64,000 nt of DNA from a virus: the IMG/VR virus record IMGVR_UViG_3300038441_001119, positions 62,001 through 126,000 of that record. The stretch is one strand, 5' to 3'. Below, in pieces: positions 3,697-34,611 of the stretch; positions within the stretch are counted from its first letter, which is position 1, and every line of letters begins with the position of its first letter. A program made the translations under genes and the position numbers. The notes under the pieces are model-generated. The model was not told the origin of the DNA and searched no databases. It saw only the letters and a program-made list of their open reading frames with translations.

Positions 3697-3775
3697 TGGC
3701 GCCCGCGCTCGGATTCGAACCGAGAACCTTCTAGCCTAGGAACCAGACGCCTCTAACCGTTGAGGCTACGCGAGC
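3697..3775 (-). tRNA. tRNA-Arg-like (anticodon CCU) with an 8-base anticodon loop
   Basis: 79 nt with encoded CCA. The acceptor pairs perfectly (GCTCGCG/CGCGGGC, one G-U). D-arm GCCT/AGGC, T-arm CTCGG-TTCGAAT-CCGAG. The anticodon stem TCTGG/CTAGA leaves eight loop bases, TTCCTAGG, one more than normal. With U33 in its usual place the anticodon is CCU (Arg, AGG codon). Forcing a 7-base loop destroys the stem. It may be a +1 frameshift-type tRNA or a decaying gene. Confidence 0.8.
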
Positions 3776-9123: not shown

Positions 9124-9199
9124 TGGCGCGGAGAGATGGAATCGAACCACCGACTGGCGCAGTTTTCACCACGCAGCTCTACCACTGAGCTACCTCCGC
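9124..9199 (-). tRNA. tRNA-Phe-like (anticodon GAA) with an 8-base anticodon loop
   Basis: 76 nt with encoded CCA. Acceptor GCGGAGG/TCTCCGC, D-arm GCTC-AGTGGTA-GAGC, T-arm GGTGG-TTCGATT-CCATC. The anticodon stem GCGTG/TGCGC uses two wobble pairs and leaves eight loop bases, GTGAAAAC. U33 precedes GAA, so Phe is the best reading. The loop expansion repeats what is seen in the tRNAs at 3697 and 9214. Confidence 0.75.
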
Positions 9200-9213: not shown

Positions 9214-9291
9214 TGGTACGAGGAGATGGATTTGAACCACCGACCCCCAGCGCCAAAATGCTGGTGCTCTACCGGACTGAGCTATCCTCGA
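9214..9291 (-). tRNA. tRNA of uncertain identity with an 8-base anticodon loop
   Basis: 78 nt with encoded CCA. Acceptor TCGAGGA/TCCTCGT pairs except for the terminal 1-72 U-U. D-arm GCTC-AGTCCGGTA-GAGC, T-arm GGTGG-TTCAAAT-CCATC. Anticodon stem CCAGC/GCTGG is perfect and encloses eight bases, ATTTTGGC. Read from the 5' side the anticodon is UUU (Lys); shifted by one it is UUG (Gln), and a UGG (Pro) reading would leave only one base after the anticodon. Isotype not decided. Confidence 0.7.
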
Positions 9292-19641: not shown

Positions 19642-21561
19642 TTATCTATGTTTCCTGTTCCTTACTTCGTCCAAGTCCAGCTTACCCGCAAGGATGTCTT
19701 CCATCTCTTGTCGCTTTAATCCAAGCAAATGCCGGATTGATTCTGCAAACGCAGGATTAGGGATGCGGAAGGGGAGGGTGATCTTGCCCCATCCGTTATT
19801 ACCCACAATCGCAGGGTCGAATAACCCTCCAGTGACAGGTGCCATGTTGTTCAGATTGAGAAGTTCCCCTTTCTGAATCTCGATGGCGTTCTTGTCATCC
19901 ACGTCTTTGTCAGTGGTAGGAGCAAGGCGCAGAATACCTTTACCAACATTACGAGGAGTAATACCGGCACCTACCATTGTGTTCATAGTCTTGTCCCATG
20001 AGAAAGGGACGCCCGGTTTAGCAGGAGTCAATCCCATACGCAGTGCTCTCCAGTACTCATCGTTTTGTTGACCGCGAAGAGTAATACCTTCCCTCAGGTT
20101 ATTGTAGGCACCAGAGGAGAGCATAACGTTGGACTCCAGTCCGGAAAGTCGTTTGGAACCACCGCCTTCTCCCGAACCTTTCGCAGGTTGACGGAACAAG
20201 TCGTAGCCACCCTGACCGCGAGAAGAAGCCTTACTCGACGAGGTATGGTGAAGTTTGAGCATGTAGGCGTTACCTACAAGCACAGGGTTCTCAAGAAATT
20301 GATTGGTCTCTGGATCGAAGATTTCCTCTTCGTCAGGGATTCCCGCTTCTTCCAGTTTTTGAAGAACGGTTTCGTACCACTTCTCGCCGGGTTTGGTGAA
20401 TCCGGGAAGTTTGATGGGCTTACCTTGAGCGGCAGCCACCTTACCCAACATGATCTCGTACAACAGGGAGTTGTTGGTACGCGATGGAATGGAAAGAGGA
20501 TTAAGAAGAACATCCAAAGGCTGACCATCCTTGGTGCGTGGCATCTTCTCATCAGGGATCACAAGGGATACGGTACCCTTCTGACCAGTACGGTAGACAA
20601 CCTTGTCACCCTCTTTGGTAGGGGCGTAGGCTTTGGTAACCACTTTGACACCTTTGGGTGTGTGGAAAACATCAACAACTTCAGCAGGATACTCTTCTTC
20701 CCAGACGGACGAAGAATCACCACGTGCCTGAGACATCGTTTTCGTGAGCTTGCCGACGTTTACACCGGCAGACGAAATAACACGAGGTCTGGTGGAAAGA
20801 ATGATAGGATCGCCGGGGTCTAGGATCTGACCTTTCTGAACAACTCCACGTTCATCCAGTTTAGCGAGTTGTTTCTTGTGGAACTTCTCAGGGAACAGGG
20901 AGCGGAAATGACCAAGGCCACCCTTGATGTCCCGGTCATACTCCTGTTCGTGTGTCTCCATGTGTTCGCTGACCATATTGTCTGCGAAACCTTTACGAAG
21001 GACGATAGCGTCGTCCATGGAGTAACCTTTATATGGAACCACAGCCACACGGGTATTCATTCCCATCGCCGCTGTGCCGTTGTCGTCCGTATAGTTGGAC
21101 GTAGCCAGCAGACCTCCTGCAGTGAACTTGTCTCCTACCTTTACCTTGGAAGTGTTATGGATACCAGACTTACGGTTGAAGCTCTGGTTATTGTAGATTG
21201 CTCGTTTCTTTTTCTCTCCAGTGGCGTTCTTGTAATGAATGTAATCAGGCGTGACTTCAGTCACCTCGCCATCTTCATCCGCAAACACAGCTCCCAGATC
21301 TTTACCGAGCTTTTCATCGAAGGAGAACCCACCATCGTCGGTGGTATCAAGGTTCTGCACCCATGGAGCTTCACGGTTGCGTAACGGCATAGCTTGGTTG
21401 TCGAATCGAGCGCCGTAGAATAGACGCGGACCCTGAACACCAGACTGAATAGGAATATGATTGATGTGAGTACCAAACAGATTCTCGTGAGAGATCAATT
21501 CGTAATCAATTTCATCATCATCAAAGTCCTGAATCTTACCGTTCCTGTAACCTACCGGCAT
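19642..21561 (-). CDS. RNA polymerase beta subunit, C-terminal part
   Basis: 639 residues matching the C-terminal half of bacterial RpoB. Recognisable blocks: residues about 40-60 (GVQGPRLFYGARFDNQAMPL, equivalent to the ALMGxNMQRQAVPL region), KGYSMDDAIVLRK at 178-190 (GYNxEDAIxxSE), GQKGTVSLVIPDEKMP at 326-341, DVLLNPLSIPSR at 350-361, and YMLKLHHTSSSKASSRGQGG at 432-451 (the YMLKLxHxVDDKxHAR block). It helps form the active site and the interface with beta'. The N-terminal and middle parts are separate genes at 54147 and 53374, so beta is split in three. No beta' (NADFDGD) gene is in the window. Confidence 0.92.
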   Translation of the reverse strand: MPVGYRNGKIQDFDDDEIDYELISHENLFGTHINHIPIQSGVQGPRLFYGARFDNQAMPLRNREAPWVQNLDTTDDGGFSFDEKLGKDLGAVFADEDGEVTEVTPDYIHYKNATGEKKKRAIYNNQSFNRKSGIHNTSKVKVGDKFTAGGLLATSNYTDDNGTAAMGMNTRVAVVPYKGYSMDDAIVLRKGFADNMVSEHMETHEQEYDRDIKGGLGHFRSLFPEKFHKKQLAKLDERGVVQKGQILDPGDPIILSTRPRVISSAGVNVGKLTKTMSQARGDSSSVWEEEYPAEVVDVFHTPKGVKVVTKAYAPTKEGDKVVYRTGQKGTVSLVIPDEKMPRTKDGQPLDVLLNPLSIPSRTNNSLLYEIMLGKVAAAQGKPIKLPGFTKPGEKWYETVLQKLEEAGIPDEEEIFDPETNQFLENPVLVGNAYMLKLHHTSSSKASSRGQGGYDLFRQPAKGSGEGGGSKRLSGLESNVMLSSGAYNNLREGITLRGQQNDEYWRALRMGLTPAKPGVPFSWDKTMNTMVGAGITPRNVGKGILRLAPTTDKDVDDKNAIEIQKGELLNLNNMAPVTGGLFDPAIVGNNGWGKITLPFRIPNPAFAESIRHLLGLKRQEMEDILAGKLDLDEVRNRKHR

Positions 21562-21567
21562 AACTAA

Positions 21568-23427
21568 TTAATATGGAATGTAGTTATTGCTACCCGGTTG
21601 TCCCGGAGATTGCAAGAAACTATTAAGCAAGCCAGTTGCTCTGTTGATCCAAGGCACTTGGGGCGGCTCGTGTTCCATGAACTGAGCTTCAGCGGAAGGT
21701 GTGGCAGGCATCAAGTGTCTGCGAACCTGCGTGGCGTAATTGTGCATCGTGGAACCATAAGGGGTACTACGAAGATTTATGGGAGTTTGAATGCCCTTCT
21801 GACCTTGGGCGCCTACGCGGTTACCGATTCTAGCCGTTTGGATGTTCAGCTGACGAGGACCCATACCGTTGATGGCGTCTTGCTGAGGCTGCATGGAAGC
21901 AGACTTCACAGCATCAAGTGTCTTGCGAATACGATCCATCGAACTGCCAAGATTGATGGAGCCAAGGATGGGATCTTTCTTACCATCACCTGCACCGGAT
22001 TTCCCAGCCAGCTTCTGCGCTTCTTGATTGATCTTGAGGTTGATGTTCTCTTCCTGCAGTTTATCCAGCTTAGACTGCAAACTATCGGTGTCTACTTGCC
22101 CTGCGGCACCGCCGGCAGTTGCAAGAGGCGAGTTTGCCATGGAGGCAGGGGTACCCGGAGGGAGCGTAGCAGGATCAACTGCGTTGTTAGCAGGAGCACC
22201 AGCACGCATATTAGGATCATAAGCAGGCATAGTCGTAGCTGCTTTCTTCACATTGAGCTTGTCGATCTCGCCAGACAGCATGTTCATCTTTGTTTGTTCG
22301 CGTTTATGCACAGCCTTGCGTTTTTCTTCGGCTTCCAGTTGAGCTTGCTTCTGGGCTTCCATTTGCTCCTCTTGTTGGAGCTTGGCTGCCTCTTGCTGCT
22401 CTGACCATTGTTGCTTACGTTCGCCGGATTCGGTACGAAGTTGGCGACGAACGTCCTTACCGACATTACGTTGGATAGCGCCGGAGATAGGGATCTGTTC
22501 CTTCAGAGGGATACGCAGCTTGGTCTCGATGTCTCCGGGCTTACGTGTAGGAAGCGTCACAGACATGTCTCCAAGGTCTTCAGTCTTCTTACTGGACCTC
22601 CACTGGGCAATAGCAGTACCGAGGGCACCAAGGGCACCTACGCCTGCAGCAACACCCAATCCAGCTTTCATACCGGGGGACATACCTTCTTTCGGAGAAG
22701 AGACCGCTTTATTGATGTTGGGAATGTCCAACTGACTCAGCTTTTCATTACCCTTGAGTAGAAGATCCTTAGCAGGTATAGCAAGACCAGCAGCGACACC
22801 CTCAGCAGGACCAATACCTTTCCACACGCTACCAGCAGCAGCGCCGAAACCAGCATTGGTTGCCATCAGGTGACGACGATGAGGGTCAGCCATCGCGTTG
22901 GAAAAGTTTTCAATAGGTCCCTTGCCTTCTCCATAGGTAGCATAGTCAAGAGCGGGACCGCCAGCAAGGGCACCTCCTGCCAAGTGGGTAAGCCAGCTCA
23001 TGACCTTCCCCTTATCTGCAGCTTTCTTTACGACATACGGGATATGCAAGGCGTCTGCGAGGTGCTCAGACTCTTTGTTACCTTCAACAATGAGAGCCTT
23101 AACCTTATCCACAGAAGCACTCTTGATATGCAGCATCTTGCTGACAGCTTCCTTAGCCTTACCGCAACCACGATGCTCAGGGAGAAGTCCAATGGTGTAG
23201 TAACCTACTTTCACCATACCTTCCTTGCGTTCTTGCCATCCCACAAACCCCGCAGGAGACTTGTCGGAGGCCGAACGAATCATGTAGATGTCATCATGGG
23301 AATCAATGTTCAGACCATATGGCCACTTCCATGGAGCCTCGTCGTAGATAGTCTTGAGAACACCTTCGAGGATAGTACGGGAACTGGTGTCTGAAGCAGA
23401 CTTGGAAAACGATTCAACCAGATACAT
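21568..23427 (-). CDS. GNAT-domain protein fused to Gly/Ala-rich virion-type region
   Basis: 619 residues. N-terminal GNAT acetyltransferase-like fold at about 45-130, with the acetyl-CoA-binding loop RGCGKA at 86-91 in LLPEHRGCGKAKEAVSKML. The rest resembles the Gly/Ala-rich proteins next to the portal: GGALAGGPALDYA, GFGAAAGSVWKG and GLGVAAGVGALGALG, alternating with long Gln/Glu/Lys coiled coil (QQEEQMEAQKQAQLEAEEKR) and Pro/Ala linkers. It lies directly before the RNA polymerase gene. A structural or ejected protein carrying an acetyltransferase is the best guess. Confidence 0.6.
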   Translation of the reverse strand: MYLVESFSKSASDTSSRTILEGVLKTIYDEAPWKWPYGLNIDSHDDIYMIRSASDKSPAGFVGWQERKEGMVKVGYYTIGLLPEHRGCGKAKEAVSKMLHIKSASVDKVKALIVEGNKESEHLADALHIPYVVKKAADKGKVMSWLTHLAGGALAGGPALDYATYGEGKGPIENFSNAMADPHRRHLMATNAGFGAAAGSVWKGIGPAEGVAAGLAIPAKDLLLKGNEKLSQLDIPNINKAVSSPKEGMSPGMKAGLGVAAGVGALGALGTAIAQWRSSKKTEDLGDMSVTLPTRKPGDIETKLRIPLKEQIPISGAIQRNVGKDVRRQLRTESGERKQQWSEQQEAAKLQQEEQMEAQKQAQLEAEEKRKAVHKREQTKMNMLSGEIDKLNVKKAATTMPAYDPNMRAGAPANNAVDPATLPPGTPASMANSPLATAGGAAGQVDTDSLQSKLDKLQEENINLKINQEAQKLAGKSGAGDGKKDPILGSINLGSSMDRIRKTLDAVKSASMQPQQDAINGMGPRQLNIQTARIGNRVGAQGQKGIQTPINLRSTPYGSTMHNYATQVRRHLMPATPSAEAQFMEHEPPQVPWINRATGLLNSFLQSPGQPGSNNYIPY

Positions 23428-25200: not shown

Positions 25201-25397
25201 TGTGATAGGCGTGTCAGTGTGTTTTGGTGTCTTTGTTTGTGAAGTTCAGCAGCTCTAGCAATGATAGCCTCATCACTAAGGATCTGCAGCTCAAGCCAAC
25301 GAGCGAAGCCAGCGTCAACGATTTCCCGTGGACGCCCTTTGACTATTCGGACCTCTGCCTTTGCATTGGTCAGAGGAGTGTTAAGCTCCGAATTCAT
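25161..25397 (-). CDS. Small helical protein, 78 aa
   Basis: Starts MNSELNTPLTNAKAEVRIVK. Predicted helical C-terminal half with basic residues. Overlaps the end of the upstream gene by 17 bases and the start of the downstream gene by 40, so translation is probably coupled. Function unknown. Confidence 0.55.
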   Translation of the reverse strand: MNSELNTPLTNAKAEVRIVKGRPREIVDAGFARWLELQILSDEAIIARAAELHKQRHQNTLTRLSQWLKRHNPLQRFH

Positions 25398-25977
25398 GTA
25401 CTATTTTCCTTTCCACCATGTCGAGCACATGCCCCCAGTCGAATTCATGAGTCGACAGAGCGTAGCTGTGCACGTCCTTACCGTCTAGATCTCGAAGACC
25501 TGTGGGACGCGTTTCGTCACGGAAGTAGGTCATAGCTTCTTCCAGACTGTCGGTCGCTCCACGGAAATCTTCCAGACCGCCGCCCGGGTAGTAGCTAGGT
25601 CCTGCGAATACCCAGAACCTTCCCATAGGAATTGCATTGAGAGGAGGGTTGGTCAGTACGGGGGTAGACAGTGCGTTGGGAGGAACAATTAGCTTTTCCT
25701 TTAATTCCTGCACCATCTTGTGAACAGAGGCCAAGGTGATGGGAGGCTTAAGGGAGACATACACCTGCTCACTGTCCTTGAGAATATGTCCTCCATCTAG
25801 AGGTGCTCCACCAGATGCAGCAGAAACGATCAACTCACTGGTTTCCGGTAACCCAAAGTCTTCCCGGAATTCACGGTTGGATTTCAGACGATCCACACTC
25901 CAACCCGGATCAATCCAGTAATCGTGGTTGATGCCGTTTACTGCGACTTTGATCTTGTTACGTTTGACGACGCTCAT
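25381..25977 (-). CDS. Protein with N-terminal ubiquitin-like domain
   Basis: 198 residues from the ATG at 25977, which overlaps the upstream TGA as ATGA. Residues 8-75 (KIKVAVNGINHDYWIDPGWS, then REFREDFGLP and EQVYVSL) follow the same pattern as each repeat of the 34162 protein: beta hairpin, DRQFKEDFxLP-type helix, then beta strands. This suggests a beta-grasp fold. A separate C-terminal domain (about 85-198) contains GRFWVFAGPSYYPGGGLEDF. It may be a ubiquitin-like fusion that docks on, or is processed by, the E1/E2/JAB set. Confidence 0.6.
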   Translation of the reverse strand: MSVVKRNKIKVAVNGINHDYWIDPGWSVDRLKSNREFREDFGLPETSELIVSAASGGAPLDGGHILKDSEQVYVSLKPPITLASVHKMVQELKEKLIVPPNALSTPVLTNPPLNAIPMGRFWVFAGPSYYPGGGLEDFRGATDSLEEAMTYFRDETRPTGLRDLDGKDVHSYALSTHEFDWGHVLDMVERKIVHEFGA

Positions 25978-26147
25978 AGCCGTTGTTTTTTCCAGATTCC
26001 ACAATGTTGGCAACGAAGGTGTACTTCGAAACCACATGGCATGGTATGGGATGTTTCGTTGTAGATGTTGATGCTACTCTTTGTTTCCCACTGATGTTTG
26101 CACCCTTTGAAGGTGCCTATAAGTAGCCTGTATAGTAGACCTAACAT
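25974..26147 (-). CDS. Small zinc-binding protein, 57 aa
   Basis: Short frame between the tRNA-Arg gene and the 25381 gene, ending in an ATGA overlap. Basic, with CKHQW near residue 16 and CQHCGIWKK near the end; the four Cys/His ligands fit a small zinc finger of a type common in phages. The start ATG lies 6 bases beyond the tRNA CCA, so mRNA and tRNA may come from one transcript. Function unknown. Confidence 0.65.
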   Translation of the reverse strand: MLGLLYRLLIGTFKGCKHQWETKSSINIYNETSHTMPCGFEVHLRCQHCGIWKKQRL

Positions 26148-29021: not shown

Positions 29022-30686
29022 TCACAGGCTTTGAAGGTACTGCCCGATGGCAGCTGCATTCTTGCCCATGATCGGACTGTTCTTCGTGTCGTACATTACC
29101 GTTTGCTGGATGAAGCGGAGAGCTTCTTCAGCGCCTTTGCGGAGATGCTTGTTCTCAGAATCGGAATGCAGCGTAAGCATGCGGTCGATCATGAGACGAG
29201 ATTGATCTGAAGGCTTATTCAGCTGCGGCAGACTGTTGAGGGTCATTGCAATGTCCTTGTGGGTAGCGACACCCACTTCTGGAAGAACATTGATCATGTG
29301 CTGCAAACCAGAGATGGCTTCGTAACGCGACAGGGAAAAGCGCGACGACACTTCGAGGAAGAGGTGTGGAATCTTCCAGTCGGCGGAATTGATAGCTTCG
29401 TTGTTGTCAACGTCGGTATCAATAGTCGTCGCCGAATCTGTTCCAATAGGCTTCCCATTGCGAGTAATCATCGATTCCGAGATCCCCGTCACGATAGTCT
29501 TTGGGCGAGCGGGCACGCCACCCGCGCCTCCGGAAGGATAGGATGAACCATGACCACTGTAAGTCGTTCCTCCACTATAGCGACCACCTTGGCCTCCTCC
29601 GTAGTAGTTGCCACCACCATGATGGCTGGAATAGTTTGACTTTACTTCGGTGATACAGTCTTTCCACTCTTCGGGGAAGCCCTCGTCCTTGATGTGGGTT
29701 ACCCAGTGCAACGACAGCTTCTCGCGGACTTCCGCAGGAAGGGAGGCATCCCAACCGGGAACTGCGATGATGTGACCGAAGTCCTTCACCGGTACCAGCT
29801 CGGAGTTCGCAGGCAGAACGCGGTTACCTTGGTTGTCATACTCCGCAGACATCTTCACCCGGATACGGGCATGGATGTCGATAGGATACACAGCCATCTT
29901 GCCGACGGTGATATGGAAGCCCTGCTTGGTCGTCTCGTCGTCCTTGTCGGTCGCAGAGTCGAAAGCGCCCATATGAACGTGGTTGTGGGTTGTACCGTGC
30001 CAGTCACCGGAGTTGACGCCAAACTGCTCACGCAGCTTTGCGAACACTTCAAGGTTCTCCTCGGTCTCGTAATCCACCTTGACCGTCATTGCTCCACGTG
30101 TGATGCGCTGATGGAATGGGAAGTGGATGTATGCACCAGCCTCAGTGAGAAGGTGCGAGATGTGGGTCTCGGCGTTGTAGGTCTTGACCGACCAGATGTG
30201 GTACGCCACGATCTGTTTCCAGTCGTCGTACGTGATCTTCGGAGCGAGGATCTTCAGCTCCGGAGCTGCTGATTCCATGTTGAAACCAGCCGGTGGCGTT
30301 TCAGTCCACCCACGGAAGAACCTGTTTTCACGCGGAGCATAGAGCTTGCTGCCGCTGATCCGCAGACCACCTGCAGGCATTGCGACCTGTACGTACCGTG
30401 GATCCTCTTCTTCTGGGGCTGGTTCGGACGTAACAGTGATTACCGGTTGCTTGGCAACTGCAGCCGTTGAGGCTCCTGCTGTCGGCGGTACCATCGGGTT
30501 GACGCGCACTGGTTCTTCCGGGTTACTGAGGTCTGCGTTGGCAATGGCTTCGTCAACAGTTCGATTGGTGTTGTTACCCTTACCTCCTCCGCGAGGACCA
30601 CCTTGGTTCCGTTTGGACTTGTCGATGGTCTGGCCTTGCCCGCCCTTTCGGTTGGACCCTCCTTTGTTGTGATTGGTTTTGGCCAT
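29022..30686 (-). CDS. JAB/JAMM-domain metallopeptidase (deconjugase-like)
   Basis: 554 residues from the ATG at 30686. After a Gly/Asn/Lys-rich disordered N-terminus (1-45) and a Pro-rich linker, residues about 110-280 form a JAB/MPN domain with a complete JAMM motif: H234-N-H236, S244 and D247 in THNHVHMGAFDSATDKDDE, with E173 as the likely catalytic Glu. This zinc protease family includes deubiquitinases and the PRTRC protein A and BilC-type enzymes, which mature or remove ubiquitin-like proteins. A Gly/Tyr/Ser-rich linker (about 365-410) leads to a helical C-terminal domain. Fourth large gene of the cassette begun by the ubiquitin-like gene. Confidence 0.8.
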   Translation of the reverse strand: MAKTNHNKGGSNRKGGQGQTIDKSKRNQGGPRGGGKGNNTNRTVDEAIANADLSNPEEPVRVNPMVPPTAGASTAAVAKQPVITVTSEPAPEEEDPRYVQVAMPAGGLRISGSKLYAPRENRFFRGWTETPPAGFNMESAAPELKILAPKITYDDWKQIVAYHIWSVKTYNAETHISHLLTEAGAYIHFPFHQRITRGAMTVKVDYETEENLEVFAKLREQFGVNSGDWHGTTHNHVHMGAFDSATDKDDETTKQGFHITVGKMAVYPIDIHARIRVKMSAEYDNQGNRVLPANSELVPVKDFGHIIAVPGWDASLPAEVREKLSLHWVTHIKDEGFPEEWKDCITEVKSNYSSHHGGGNYYGGGQGGRYSGGTTYSGHGSSYPSGGAGGVPARPKTIVTGISESMITRNGKPIGTDSATTIDTDVDNNEAINSADWKIPHLFLEVSSRFSLSRYEAISGLQHMINVLPEVGVATHKDIAMTLNSLPQLNKPSDQSRLMIDRMLTLHSDSENKHLRKGAEEALRFIQQTVMYDTKNSPIMGKNAAAIGQYLQSL

Positions 30687-30690
30687 GGTA

Positions 30691-32121
30691 TTAGATGAAC
30701 TGCGGAGTAAGCTGATCGGGTTTGAAGGTATTGATTGCCAGAATTTTGCTATGAGCTTTCTCAAAGGCTACGATAGGTTGAGGATCTTTCGGATGTGCGG
30801 CAGCTGCAAATTCCGCGAAATGCTTCGCAGCAGTTGCATCACGCAGGTGTATCCCTGCATGAGAGTTGTCACCAGTAGCACTGATGGTCGAGGTGAATGA
30901 CGTGGGACTCACGTTCTTGGAAGTGTGCGTAGGGAAGTACATCACACCATAGAAGAACGGGCCGTCGATCCACTGATTGAAGAACTCCTGTGCGTAACCC
31001 CAGAGGGCTTCGGCGTTCAGGATGTCTCCGGGCATCTTGTTGATCGCAGTACTGTTTTGAGCCGTGAGGATCGAAAGCTGATACGAACTGTCATACGGAG
31101 CACGTTGAACGCTGCGAATCCTGATGGCACCACGAGTAGTACCCTCTTGGGAGAGAGGGCCGCCCAGCATCTTCTCGATACCGACGCGTGTGGCTTCTTG
31201 GAAAGTCGCAGCACCACCTGCAGAGGGTACAACGAGGTACGATACCGACAGCGAGACCATCTTGGGCTTGAACGCAGGTGCGTCCCAGATGGACCGCGCC
31301 ATGTTCTTGTTGATAGTCATCTGTGAAACACCGCCTCCAACATCCCCAAACAGAGTGGAGAGACGCTGAGAACCAGCGATGGAGTGAGTGATACCAGCGA
31401 GAGGTGAGTTCTCGAAGATGAAGATCGGACGCAGCAGGGCGACGATAAACTTCCGTGAATCCGCCGGACCATAGTAGACACCGTTGGTAACAGGGATGGT
31501 TGCCTGAATGCAGTCAGCGATAGCCATCTTGGTCTCGCTGTTGCGGAGGGCCAGAATATGAGAGATATCCTGCAGAATGTGGGCTGGAGCACCCAGACGA
31601 GCGCGACCTTGGTCACCCCCACCTGTACTGGCAGAATTCTTCAGCATTCGCAGCATGTTCTTGTTAGCGTCCTCCTTTCTACGCAAGAACGAGAATTTTG
31701 GAGATTCGTAAACTTCCATGAGATCTTTGTGGGTGATCTCATCGAACTTCGTATTCATGAATGCGGCAGCAGCTGGTTCCCAGCTTTGCTGAATCATGCG
31801 GGCGACAACCTTGGAACGGAAGTCAGCGCCGTAGGCAGTAGGCTCTGGGACAAACGCAGGGATGTCTGCAAGGGGAATACCTTGGATGGCGTCGGTAGTC
31901 GAGGTAGTCCACGTGCCGCTGCTGAAGGTCAGGAGACGAACAGGCGACCCACTAGAACCGACGATTGTCGAGGTTACCGGGGGAGTCGGGATCGAGAACT
32001 GCCAAGCTGGAGCTGGAGTGGCTGGAGGTGGCGGAGTTTCGACTGCTGCAGCGGCTGGGGCCTTGTCCTTTTTGGCTGCAGTTTTGGTTACCCTCTTGGT
32101 GGCTTTCTTGGTAGTACTCAC
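30691..32121 (-). CDS. Hypothetical protein of the ubiquitin-like operon, 476 aa
   Basis: GTG start chosen because it forms a GTGA overlap with the E1-like stop. The N-terminus is a basic then Pro/Ala-rich tail (KKATKRVTKTAAKKDKAPAA). The body (about 75-476) is mixed alpha/beta with no motif I recognise. Its position between E1 and JAB genes, with coupled translation, makes it a candidate for a substrate, scaffold or ligase-like partner. It contains very few cysteines, which argues against a RING- or HECT-type E3. Confidence 0.6.
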   Translation of the reverse strand: MSTTKKATKRVTKTAAKKDKAPAAAAVETPPPPATPAPAWQFSIPTPPVTSTIVGSSGSPVRLLTFSSGTWTTSTTDAIQGIPLADIPAFVPEPTAYGADFRSKVVARMIQQSWEPAAAAFMNTKFDEITHKDLMEVYESPKFSFLRRKEDANKNMLRMLKNSASTGGGDQGRARLGAPAHILQDISHILALRNSETKMAIADCIQATIPVTNGVYYGPADSRKFIVALLRPIFIFENSPLAGITHSIAGSQRLSTLFGDVGGGVSQMTINKNMARSIWDAPAFKPKMVSLSVSYLVVPSAGGAATFQEATRVGIEKMLGGPLSQEGTTRGAIRIRSVQRAPYDSSYQLSILTAQNSTAINKMPGDILNAEALWGYAQEFFNQWIDGPFFYGVMYFPTHTSKNVSPTSFTSTISATGDNSHAGIHLRDATAAKHFAEFAAAAHPKDPQPIVAFEKAHSKILAINTFKPDQLTPQFI

Positions 32122-32837
32122 GTCAGTTTCACTTCAGTTGCTTCTTCATGCACTTCCGCTTTCGGGGCTTCCATTGGAATATCCTTGAAGCGGACACTGG
32201 TGACACCGTTGCGGGTGCCCTTGATTTCTGCTGGCACATTCTCCAGACTTGCGCAACGCTGCAGAGCATTGAACAGCCAGAGCATGAAGCTACCAGCGTT
32301 GTGGTTGGCAATCGGCAGTTGAGGTGCTGACTCGATTGCTTCGACGGTATTGCAGCTTTCGCCGGGGCCACGACCATCAGGGACGATGTTGTGGCGCACG
32401 TATGGGTCGCGATAGGTATCACCCCATTCCGGTATGAATAGGTATGCCTCGGGGTCTTCTTCTTCATTGGCACCCCAGATGATCGGGATGTCCATGCGTT
32501 CCGCGATCTTTTTCGCGTAGCAGCGTGCGTCGTGGTTGTCGACAGCCACGAACAGAATCTTGACATCGTCAGGAAGCTCGGTCATGTCGGAGATATAGGT
32601 CTCCATGCATGTGATCTTCTTGTCGGTGAACTTATCGTACATCGAGGCGTAGACTTTCGCCTTGTTTTCCGAGTCACCAAAGTGTGCGCCGATTTGACGA
32701 AGAGTATTCTTCTTCTCAAACTTGTCGCCATCGATGAGGAGCAGGTTGTGCGTCATCATGAGGGCGGGCAGGATGTGGGAGGTGACTCCTCCACAACCGA
32801 TAATGGCGATTGTATCAAAGGATCGTTCGATCTTCAT
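32118..32837 (-). CDS. E1-like (ThiF/MoeB superfamily) activating enzyme
   Basis: 239 residues. Nucleotide-binding GxGG motif (G14-C-G-G17 in AIIGCGGVTSHILPAL), LLIDGDKF with D36 and D38, then N44 and R47-Q48 in KKNTLRQ, as in E1/ThiF adenylating enzymes. C162 in GPGESCNTVEAIESAPQLPI sits where PRTRC-type ThiF proteins carry a conserved Cys and is the candidate thioester site. It would adenylate the C-terminus of a ubiquitin-like protein and pass it to an E2. Lies between the E2-like and JAB genes. Confidence 0.85.
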   Translation of the reverse strand: MKIERSFDTIAIIGCGGVTSHILPALMMTHNLLLIDGDKFEKKNTLRQIGAHFGDSENKAKVYASMYDKFTDKKITCMETYISDMTELPDDVKILFVAVDNHDARCYAKKIAERMDIPIIWGANEEEDPEAYLFIPEWGDTYRDPYVRHNIVPDGRGPGESCNTVEAIESAPQLPIANHNAGSFMLWLFNALQRCASLENVPAEIKGTRNGVTSVRFKDIPMEAPKAEVHEEATEVKLT

Positions 32838-32846
32838 GAGTGGGTG

Positions 32847-33062
32847 TTACAGAGACTTGGACTGGTAGGTGGGGTTGTGTTTAGCAAAGATATCCCCGAG
32901 GATGCGGAGAGTTTTGCTAGGGATTTTGGGTGCTGGTTTCGGAGTCGTGAACTCCGTGATTCCTGCGGACAGGATATCAGCTGCGGCTTTGTCAGTGGGG
33001 GCTGCGCGGGCTTTAGCTGCTAGTGCGAGGAAGAAATCCCCGTCTTTTTTCTTAGCTGCCAT
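32847..33062 (-). CDS. Small protein of the ubiquitin-like operon, 71 aa
   Basis: Basic, Ala/Lys/Pro-rich (MAAKKKDGDFFLALAAKARA), ending KTLRILGDIFAKHNPTYQS. Tightly packed between the E2-like and E1-like genes with gaps of 3 and 9 bases. Not recognised; an accessory subunit is a guess from position. Confidence 0.6.
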   Translation of the reverse strand: MAAKKKDGDFFLALAAKARAAPTDKAAADILSAGITEFTTPKPAPKIPSKTLRILGDIFAKHNPTYQSKSL

Positions 33063-33065
33063 TTA

Positions 33066-34016
33066 TCAATCCCAGATAGGAGGGAGGGTTGCGGTGACCG
33101 TGCGAGCAATGGTTTTGGGGAACACAATGTGTAGATAGGGAGCAAGATCCCCTTCGTCAGCAATGCGTACTTCAGCGGTCATACCTGTCATCGTCTTGGA
33201 GACATCGAGGTTACCGGGAGATTCTTCGAGGTCGATGAAGACGTCGTTGAGACCGCGTGGTCCGAAAGCACCACGGGAAACCTGCGGGGACATACAGATG
33301 CGCCCGTCGTCGAAGATGTTATAAAGCGGAGGCTGATACAGGCGCTTGGTGGACTGCTCGACCATGTAGATGTACTGGGAGACATATCCCGGTTCACTGC
33401 GAGAACCAGCCTGCTCGGGATGGCTCTGACGTTGAACGAACATCACTTTGTCAAAGCCACACTCCTTGGCATTGATCGCGCACTTCCAGTTCATGGAGTT
33501 CTGGTTGAGATAGTGTCTGGAGTACTCCAGACCACCGCGATCCATATTGCTGGTGTATGGCTTGAACTTGATGGTTTTCGAAGCACCATCCCAGTAAGGA
33601 ACAAATGCACCGTTCCAAGTGCAGTAGTCCATGATCCAGATCTGCCAGATTTCACCGGCACGTTTCCACATCGACCATTTGATGTCTTGTGCGACACCAT
33701 CCACCTGAACCATCCGTTCAGTGGCCCTCATGATAGGTTCGAATGTGTCGCCACCAGTGATGTGCGAAGCGGCGATCTGTTCCACTTCCTCAATGGTGAT
33801 TTTGGCAAGGGTGAACTCACCGGGTTTGACCGATGGCATGAAGGCCATCATTGACGTTGCTGGTTTGTCCACTCCGATCACGAAACTACTCGCAGCAGGA
33901 CGCTGGATAGCTTCATAAACGATTGCATCGCCAGCAGGCGGTGCAGGTGGCGGACCTCCAGCGATATCAGCTGCGACTGCGGCAGCTTCTTCTTGTGGGG
34001 CAGCGGTTGCGCTCAT
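33066..34016 (-). CDS. E2-like protein (PRTRC protein B / Prok-E2 type)
   Basis: 316 residues. Pro/Ala-rich N-terminus (1-35), then a mixed fold ending in PPLYNIFDDGRICMSPQVSR, with C241 in a position matching the PxxNVYDxGRxCxG segment of PRTRC protein B, a proposed E2-like family in which that Cys carries the ubiquitin-like protein. Other Cys residues (C132, C179, C186) do not sit in such a motif. The assignment rests on this segment plus adjacency to a ubiquitin-like, an E1-like and a JAB gene; overall similarity is remote. Confidence 0.55.
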   Translation of the reverse strand: MSATAAPQEEAAAVAADIAGGPPPAPPAGDAIVYEAIQRPAASSFVIGVDKPATSMMAFMPSVKPGEFTLAKITIEEVEQIAASHITGGDTFEPIMRATERMVQVDGVAQDIKWSMWKRAGEIWQIWIMDYCTWNGAFVPYWDGASKTIKFKPYTSNMDRGGLEYSRHYLNQNSMNWKCAINAKECGFDKVMFVQRQSHPEQAGSRSEPGYVSQYIYMVEQSTKRLYQPPLYNIFDDGRICMSPQVSRGAFGPRGLNDVFIDLEESPGNLDVSKTMTGMTAEVRIADEGDLAPYLHIVFPKTIARTVTATLPPIWD

Positions 34017-34047
34017 TTAGGGTGTTGTAGATAAAAACAAAGAAAGA

Positions 34048-34077
34048 GGGGTGACACACGTTTCCGCATGTCACCCC
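34048..34077 (-). terminator. Terminator between ubiquitin-like and E2-like genes
   Basis: 9-bp stem GGGGTGACA/TGTCACCCC, then CTTTCTTTGTTTTTATC on the minus strand. Suggests that the ubiquitin-like gene is also made as a separate short mRNA. Confidence 0.75.
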
Positions 34078-34123
34078 CGCAGTTTGTTGCCACCTCCGAT
34101 ATGGACTATCAAAGGTAGCCCGT

Positions 34124-34154
34124 GAGTGAGGTTCAGTCTTCCCGAACCTCACTC
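34124..34154 (-). terminator. Hairpin after the ubiquitin-like gene
   Basis: Perfect 11-bp stem GAGTGAGGTTC/GAACCTCACTC with a 9-base loop, 7 bases past the stop. No U-tract. Probably protects the mRNA 3' end or acts with the 34048 terminator. Confidence 0.6.
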
Positions 34155-34161
34155 TGGATAA

Positions 34162-34611
34162 TTATGCCAATGCCTTGGACGAGGCGACGGTTTGGACAGT
34201 GATGACATCACCGGCCGAAAGCGTCACGTTGGATTCAGAGCCGTTGACGAACACGCGGATGTTCGAAGGAAGAGCGAAGTCCTCCTTGAACTGACGGTCG
34301 TTTTGAAGCGTAGAGGTGGTGGTGCCGTACGGGACGTAGAAGTCGCTGCGGTTGCCATTGACATGGACAATCACTTTGACACGTGCAGCTGCCTTGGACG
34401 AGGCAACGGTTTGCACTTCGACGATGTCCGAAGCGGCGAGTCGCTTGTCCGCAGTAGAACCGTTAACGATAATACGGATGTTCGAAGGAAGAGCGAAGTC
34501 CTCCTTGAACTGCCGATCACTGGCGAGAGCCGAGGCGTAGGTACCGGTTGGAACCCACCAGGTGTTGGTATTGCCGTTGATTTTGACTGCGATTTTGATG
34601 CGAGCTGCCAT
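34162..34611 (-). CDS. Tandem ubiquitin-like (beta-grasp) protein
   Basis: 149 residues from the ATG at 34611; the longer frame has an unlikely N-terminus crossing promoter-like sequence. Two near-identical repeats, about 4-74 and 77-149, each with a beta hairpin (RIKIAVKINGN / RVKVIVHVNGN), helix DRQFKEDFALPSNIR, a central strand and a final strand EVQTVASSK / TVQTVASSK. Size, pattern and the double-domain layout resemble ISG15 and BilA-type proteins or PRTRC protein C. The C-terminus is SSKALA, not Gly-Gly, so conjugation would need trimming or different chemistry. The same domain recurs in the 25381 protein. Confidence 0.65.
   Translation of the reverse strand: MAARIKIAVKINGNTNTWWVPTGTYASALASDRQFKEDFALPSNIRIIVNGSTADKRLAASDIVEVQTVASSKAAARVKVIVHVNGNRSDFYVPYGTTTSTLQNDRQFKEDFALPSNIRVFVNGSESNVTLSAGDVITVQTVASSKALA
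34256..34512 (-). repeat. Direct repeats inside the ubiquitin-like gene
   Basis: A 38-base perfect direct repeat (34256-34293 and 34475-34512), offset 219 bp (73 codons); another shared block surrounds 34172 and 34391 at the same offset. Shows a fairly recent in-frame tandem duplication of the domain. Confidence 0.85.

Follow-up and report, generated by a model that had tools for sequence, protein, structure and literature searches.

Ubiquitin-like (Ubl) conjugation in bacteria is known mainly as anti-phage defence, in Bil and in cyclic-oligonucleotide-based anti-phage signalling systems (CBASS), or from plasmid cassettes. The Bil (BilABCD) anti-phage system consists of a two-unit Ubl protein, an E1, an E2 and a JAB protein. 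PRTRC, a cassette of plasmids related to ParB and ThiF, is operon type 6d in the survey of Iyer, Burroughs and Aravind (2006; PMC1779556), the table of which covers bacteria only; the phage pairing of Ubl and JAB in the same survey is the lambda tail pair. Here, we analyse a cassette in a 64,000-nucleotide stretch of viral DNA (the window), which corresponds to bases 62001–126000 of the 212,352-base IMG/VR virus record IMGVR_UViG_3300038441_001119. The cassette occupies positions 29022–34611 of the window on the minus strand and encodes, in the order of transcription, a tandem Ubl protein, an E2-like protein, a 71-residue protein, an E1, a 476-residue protein and a JAB protein. Judged from the sequences, it is probably a phage-encoded reversible Ubl-conjugation system of the PRTRC-like (type 6d-like) kind. 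The original prediction, made from the letters of the DNA, had noted five of these genes; all five open reading frames (ORFs) are present, and the sixth, the 71-residue ORF, sits between E2 and E1.

The enzymes of the cassette and their relatives

IMG/VR was scanned with degenerate patterns for the E2 and JAB motifs. The JAB pattern returned at least 119 loci, every one encoding a JAB protein, which places the family in at least 119 IMG/VR contigs; this census reflects selection by the JAB pattern in a database that may include plasmids. Iterative profiles for each protein were built from the IMG/VR phage loci with the window left out; individual loci are designated here by L numbers. The E-values of their matches to window proteins, including those from a run on all 1,722 ORFs in the 212-kb record, refer to small ORF sets. 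In the whole record the window proteins were the only significant matches, each being the top match of its profile (E1, 4e-30; JAB, 3e-23; Ubl, 4e-5; E2, 1.5e-4).

The E1 (32118–32837, 239 residues) matches Pfam ThiF with an E-value of 3.6e-14 and the phage E1 profile with 1.3e-30. ThiF is its only Pfam match, and there is no rhodanese domain. The nucleotide-binding glycines and residues D36, D38, R47, Q48, K59, D100 and C162 are conserved, and C162, the candidate cysteine of the original prediction, is invariant across about 115 phage E1s, in full agreement with the E1/ThiF assignment made there. In the E1 tree the window protein clusters with those of L045, L065 and L144 (Shimodaira–Hasegawa-like approximate likelihood-ratio support of 93).

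The JAB/JAMM isopeptidase (29022–30686) has a likely ATG start at 30686, giving 554 residues, or 580 residues if a TTG at 30764 is used. It matches the phage JAB profile at 1e-23, and E199, H260, H262, S270 and D273 (numbered from the TTG start) are invariant in the family, which upholds the complete JAB motif that had been proposed. Pfam did not recognize this protein as a JAB, and its Prok-JAB model matched nothing in the entire record; 12 of the 17 aligned JABs do match Prok-JAB. Rejecting the assignment on the silence of Pfam alone would have been wrong. Type 6d JAB proteins have a JAB-N domain with a conserved Arg and Trp; for the N-terminal part of the window protein, the library searches gave no relatives.

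The E2-like protein (33066–34016) is a divergent relative of Prok-E2_D and PRTRC B. Pfam Prok-E2_D (PF14460) aligns with 20 of its residues at an E-value of 0.0023, which is below the cut-off, and the phage E2 profile matches at 4.6e-5. Alignment against 54 phage E2s with hhalign gave a probability of 92.7% and an E-value of 4e-7 over residues 223–275 (52 columns), a region spanning PPLYNIFDDGRIC plus the following ESPGNLD segment; none of the controls, which comprised eight other proteins of the window and five shuffled copies, exceeded 3.6%. N233 and C241 are invariant in the 55 aligned E2s, and the motif after the cysteine is ESPxNxD. PF14460 matches 41 of these 55 proteins (best E-value 1.8e-43). 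In type 6d, a His that follows the E2 Cys is absolutely conserved; the consensus of this phage alignment, of which the original 6d set is not part, shows no majority His after the Cys. From the active-site motif we infer that the 33066 protein has an E2 fold.

Genes of this kind travel together. Among the JAB loci listed, 22 are flanked by 3.5 kb or more on each side; E1 and E2 are present in all 22, and Ubl in 20. The set or parts of it occur in the isolates Salmonella phage Arash, Vibrio phages D69, D148 and D181, Burkholderia phage BgVeeders33 and Bacillus phage KLEB27-3, one annotation of which reads PRTRC_A; all four proteins were profile-checked in Arash, D181, BgVeeders33 and KLEB27-3. 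The composition of the cassette, for which the original prediction named no described phage counterpart, is therefore not unique: many phage contigs contain the Ubl–E2–JAB–E1 set, as do several phage isolates. The phage profiles also match the PRTRC proteins of a Novosphingobium plasmid (ThiF, 3.6e-48; A, 9.7e-34; B, 1.2e-11), the PRTRC C protein of which ends in GTKG, and a phage E1 query matches 163 plasmids. A ParB-like gene adjoins the cassette in about six IMG/VR contigs (L058, 12942–14132, and similar), as in plasmid PRTRC; these contigs may be phage-plasmids or misfiled plasmids. Direct searches with the window proteins found little. Single-protein IMG/VR searches returned no close relatives of the E1, the E2 or the 476-residue protein; tblastn against phage records gave one weak match for the E1, in Arash, and none for the E2, the JAB or the 476-residue protein.

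The two accessory genes have counterparts in related cassettes by position. The 71-residue Lys/Ala-rich protein (32847–33062) occupies the place of a helical protein in related cassettes, and has no family match in library scans and no relative by profile comparison. The gene for the 476-residue protein (30691–32121, GTG start) shares a four-base overlap with the E1 gene, an operon-like arrangement. As originally stated, its product has no assignment: no relative was detected in family libraries, by tblastn of phage records, in IMG/VR or with the whole-record profiles. It stands where L065 and L144 carry a protein of 353 and 376 residues, respectively, and hhalign comparison with these positional counterparts was negative.

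The tandem ubiquitin-like protein and its C-terminal ends

The Ubl protein (34162–34611; 149 residues from a likely ATG at 34611) consists of two units in tandem that are 62% identical, and the phage-locus Ubl profile matches both repeats (E-value 1.3e-5). An AlphaFold2 model of the second unit, built from 46 sequences, has a predicted local distance difference test (pLDDT) score of 86.7 and a beta-beta-alpha-beta-beta order, and its top matches in the PDB are ubiquitin-like domains, mostly SUMO, with E-values of 1e-4 to 1e-3. The unit is thus confidently predicted to have a ubiquitin/SUMO-like fold, and the tandem beta-grasp protein proposed originally is corroborated.

Both units end in VASSKA (A-S-S-K-A), followed by AA or LA, such that the protein itself ends in SSKALA. 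The Ubls of the phage relatives contain single, double or triple units ending in G-x-K-G; L144 instead has GRKS and, after it, a helical extension. The Ser/Ala change in the window protein is absent from the original prediction, and bears on whether and how this Ubl is conjugated. In Cap2 systems the conjugated donor end is Gly or Ala (PMC10097602), and since Ala is tolerated there and Ser is not, the window protein may be conjugated by way of an Ala end. A serious alternative is that the two units are no longer cleaved apart and stay joined as a permanent di-Ubl.

A third Ubl-like domain lies outside the cassette on the same strand (25381–26037). The tandem-unit profile matches its residues 26–85 at 2.6e-9; the protein carries a phrog_1411-type C-terminal domain (5e-11) and has no end motif. 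Elsewhere, phage poly-Ubl genes (L115, L051, L114, L130, L134 and L148) encode two or three head-to-tail units that mostly end in G-T-K-G or a variant, resembling polyubiquitin precursors, and the Ubls of L062, L069 and L084, encoded downstream of E1, have an N-terminal SAP/Rho_N-like domain.

Proposed pathway and genomic setting

In the pathway that we favour, the E1 would adenylate the Ubl C-terminus, and the Ubl would move as a thioester, by way of Cys162 of the E1, directly or by both routes, to the E2-like protein and its Cys241. The E2-like protein would then couple the Ubl to amines on target proteins, and the JAB protein would trim the Ubl precursor and remove the tag. The acceptor-linked terminus would be Ala or a trimmed end, and the targets would be met during infection.

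Several observations weigh against this assignment. The glycines of the family end G-x-K-G are near-invariant (relatives end in ...GTKG), and the window units have Ser and Ala in their place; in Cap2, Gly-to-Ala lowers conjugation without stopping it, and Gly-to-Ser abolishes it (PMC10097602). The E1 is on a long branch in the tree. The likeness of the E2-like protein to its relatives is confined to about 52 residues of the active-site region, and its full-length AlphaFold2 model has a pLDDT of 61, the best part (approximately residues 181–270) being mostly 65–88. This model is too poor for a fold search and gave no match in the PDB, so that the PRTRC-B/E2-like character first proposed holds for the motif with Cys241 and does not extend to the full-length model. 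The 476-residue protein is unexplained, and for none of the phage members did we find information on targets, expression or biochemistry.

The surroundings of the cassette are those of a phage. Window genes match the phage families phrog_1735 (3e-89) and phrog_2376, an ATPase (2e-64), and others encode an RNA polymerase beta-type protein, a DNA ligase and a thymidylate synthase; in other phages, the genes beside homologues of phrog_1735 and of the ATPase gave no clue. Terminase, sheath and T4-type capsid genes were not recognized anywhere in the record with the models tried (the capsid search having no positive control), which points to a very divergent large phage as the source. No recognized virion genes adjoin the cassette. 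Given this absence and the presence in the window of genes for an RNA polymerase, an ATPase, a ligase and a thymidylate synthase, a role in modifying proteins of the host or the phage in takeover or replication appears to be likelier than one in tail assembly. The setting and the intact enzymes together favour a role in infection that acts on host or phage proteins.

Further features were observed in the record and in one other locus. The RNA polymerase beta-type gene (639 residues) adjoins a gene for a 619-residue protein without a family match (19642–23427), which is possibly its other half. In L135 (4721–8197), a 1158-residue protein combines an RNA polymerase beta-type region (residues 44–344) with a DNA primase family region (residues 337–587). 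Shine–Dalgarno-like motifs are rare ahead of minus-strand gene starts in the window (11 of 70 genes), which suggests that the host is not reliant on such motifs. Among the stop codons of the record TAG is infrequent (11 of 198), and ARAGORN reported tRNA-like genes with the four-base anticodons ccta, gaaa and tttg at 3697–3775, 9124–9199 and 9214–9291, respectively.

Alternative roles and comparison with known systems

The altered ends raise the question of whether the Ubl is conjugated at all. It could instead work without covalent attachment, as a di-Ubl adaptor or inhibitor such as a decoy directed at the Ubl pathway of a host or rival, with the E1, E2 and JAB proteins serving another carrier or being vestigial. 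The change of the G-x-K-G end in both units, the GRKS end and helical extension in L144 and the third domain, likewise without the end motif, would all fit such a protein. We nevertheless regard it as unlikely, since the preservation of the E1, the JAB and the E2 motif despite so much divergence of the genome speaks for selection on activity, and Ala is a donor end in use in Cap2 systems (PMC10097602). A sulfur carrier, in which the E1 and JAB would provide the Ubl as a thiocarboxylate for cofactor or tRNA/nucleotide thiolation, as for ThiS, MoaD and CysO, is scarcely credible here: the E1 lacks a rhodanese domain, the cassette includes an E2-like partner whose Cys is invariant, no genes for sulfur or cofactor pathways were recognized adjoining it and the Gly end is absent. 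These features outweigh the MoaD-like and ThiS-like matches of the Ubl family and the occurrence of Ubl, JAB and E1 in sulfur pathways as well (PMC1779556).

A role in the virion, with Ubl and JAB maturing the tail or head in the manner of lambda tail proteins I and K or of Bil-type virion tagging, is possible, if improbable. Lambda-like phages do pair Ubl and JAB among their tail genes (PMC1779556), and in Arash (L133) the E1 and E2 homologues, near a PAAR spike gene, are labelled structural protein, although the basis of these labels is not established. The lambda set contains no E1 or E2, neither an NlpC/P60 partner nor tail genes were recognized near the window cassette, and the cassettes of the Vibrio and Bacillus phages sit among nucleotide and RNA metabolism genes. 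Replicon maintenance, as for PRTRC on plasmids with ParB, would accord with the homology to PRTRC A, B and ThiF and with the ParB-like gene adjoining some viral-contig cassettes. It is very unlikely for the window, however, because the ParB_N domain has no match anywhere in the 212-kb record, and the function of PRTRC itself is not established.

Reversible Ubl conjugation is therefore the reading that we retain. Tentatively, it can be taken further: a giant-phage lineage would operate its own reversible conjugation in the course of infection, with a two-headed (ISG15-like) modifier joined by an Ala instead of a Gly end and the phage-specific 476-residue protein as adaptor or target, and such cassettes, being common, would represent an undescribed phage pathway. 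A literature search that covered neither preprints nor most subscription papers found no paper on phage PRTRC-type conjugation, which is weak evidence of novelty; among the papers on phage, PRTRC, Bil and JAB, only the PMC1779556 survey and the CBASS papers were relevant. The presence of complete, catalytically intact cassettes in many phages suggests that phages themselves probably perform Ubl modification, and the isolated phages that carry the set (Arash, KLEB27-3, BgVeeders33 and the Vibrio D-series) make a PRTRC-type role testable in culture.

Among known systems, CBASS type II with Cap2 and Cap3 shares the E1/E2/JAB chemistry and a donor that may end in Ala (PMC10097602), but the window E1 and E2 are separate genes with no Cap2 fusion, and library scans of the cassette proteins gave no match to the CD-NTase family. 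The lambda TAPI/TAPK pair, like the window, combines Ubl and JAB in a phage, but is without the E1 and E2 that the window has. The cassette has the two-unit Ubl, E1, E2 and JAB in common with Bil, and differs from it in being phage-borne and in its extra genes. The original prediction had invoked the gene sets of both PRTRC and Bil; the kinship to PRTRC is borne out by the profile matches to plasmid A, B and ThiF, whereas nothing in this analysis ties the cassette specifically to Bil. Two Ubl domains, offered as a pointer to Bil, are not diagnostic, as phage relatives have one, two or three units. No Bil-named models surfaced in scans of NCBIfam and PADLOC, libraries that may or may not include such models.

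PRTRC (NCBIfam TIGR03736/37; type 6d) resembles the window in having separate genes for Ubl, E2 (Prok-E2_D), JAB and ThiF/E1 in one operon. Of the type 6d traits, the window has a ThiF without rhodanese, a family-D E2 with Cys (in the active-site region only) and a complete JAMM motif. Its proteins fall below the curated PRTRC cut-offs, PRTRC E and F are unrecognized in the cassette, and there is an additional 476-residue gene. The order is Ubl–E2–x–E1–x–JAB instead of Ubl–E2–JAB–E1, and the Ubl is a tandem without C-terminal Gly, whereas the 6d Ubl is small and standalone with a conserved C-terminal Gly. Because this Gly is absent and no ParB was found in the record, the cassette is not filed as PRTRC proper.

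The closest counterparts are the PRTRC-like cassettes of phages (Arash, D69/D148/D181, BgVeeders33, KLEB27-3 and more than 100 IMG/VR contigs), which have the same four functions and the same catalytic residues. Their Ubls end in G-x-K-G and their usual order is Ubl–E2–JAB–E1, whereas the window belongs to the divergent L045/L065/L144 group, in which the nearest relatives L144 and L065 share its E2–x–E1–x–JAB order, with Ubl upstream in L144. What is unusual in the window is the extreme divergence, the SSKA ends, the 476-residue gene without known relatives and the third Ubl nearby. The window cassette is thus related, at great distance and with slight alterations, to one that is common on plasmids and found in many phages.

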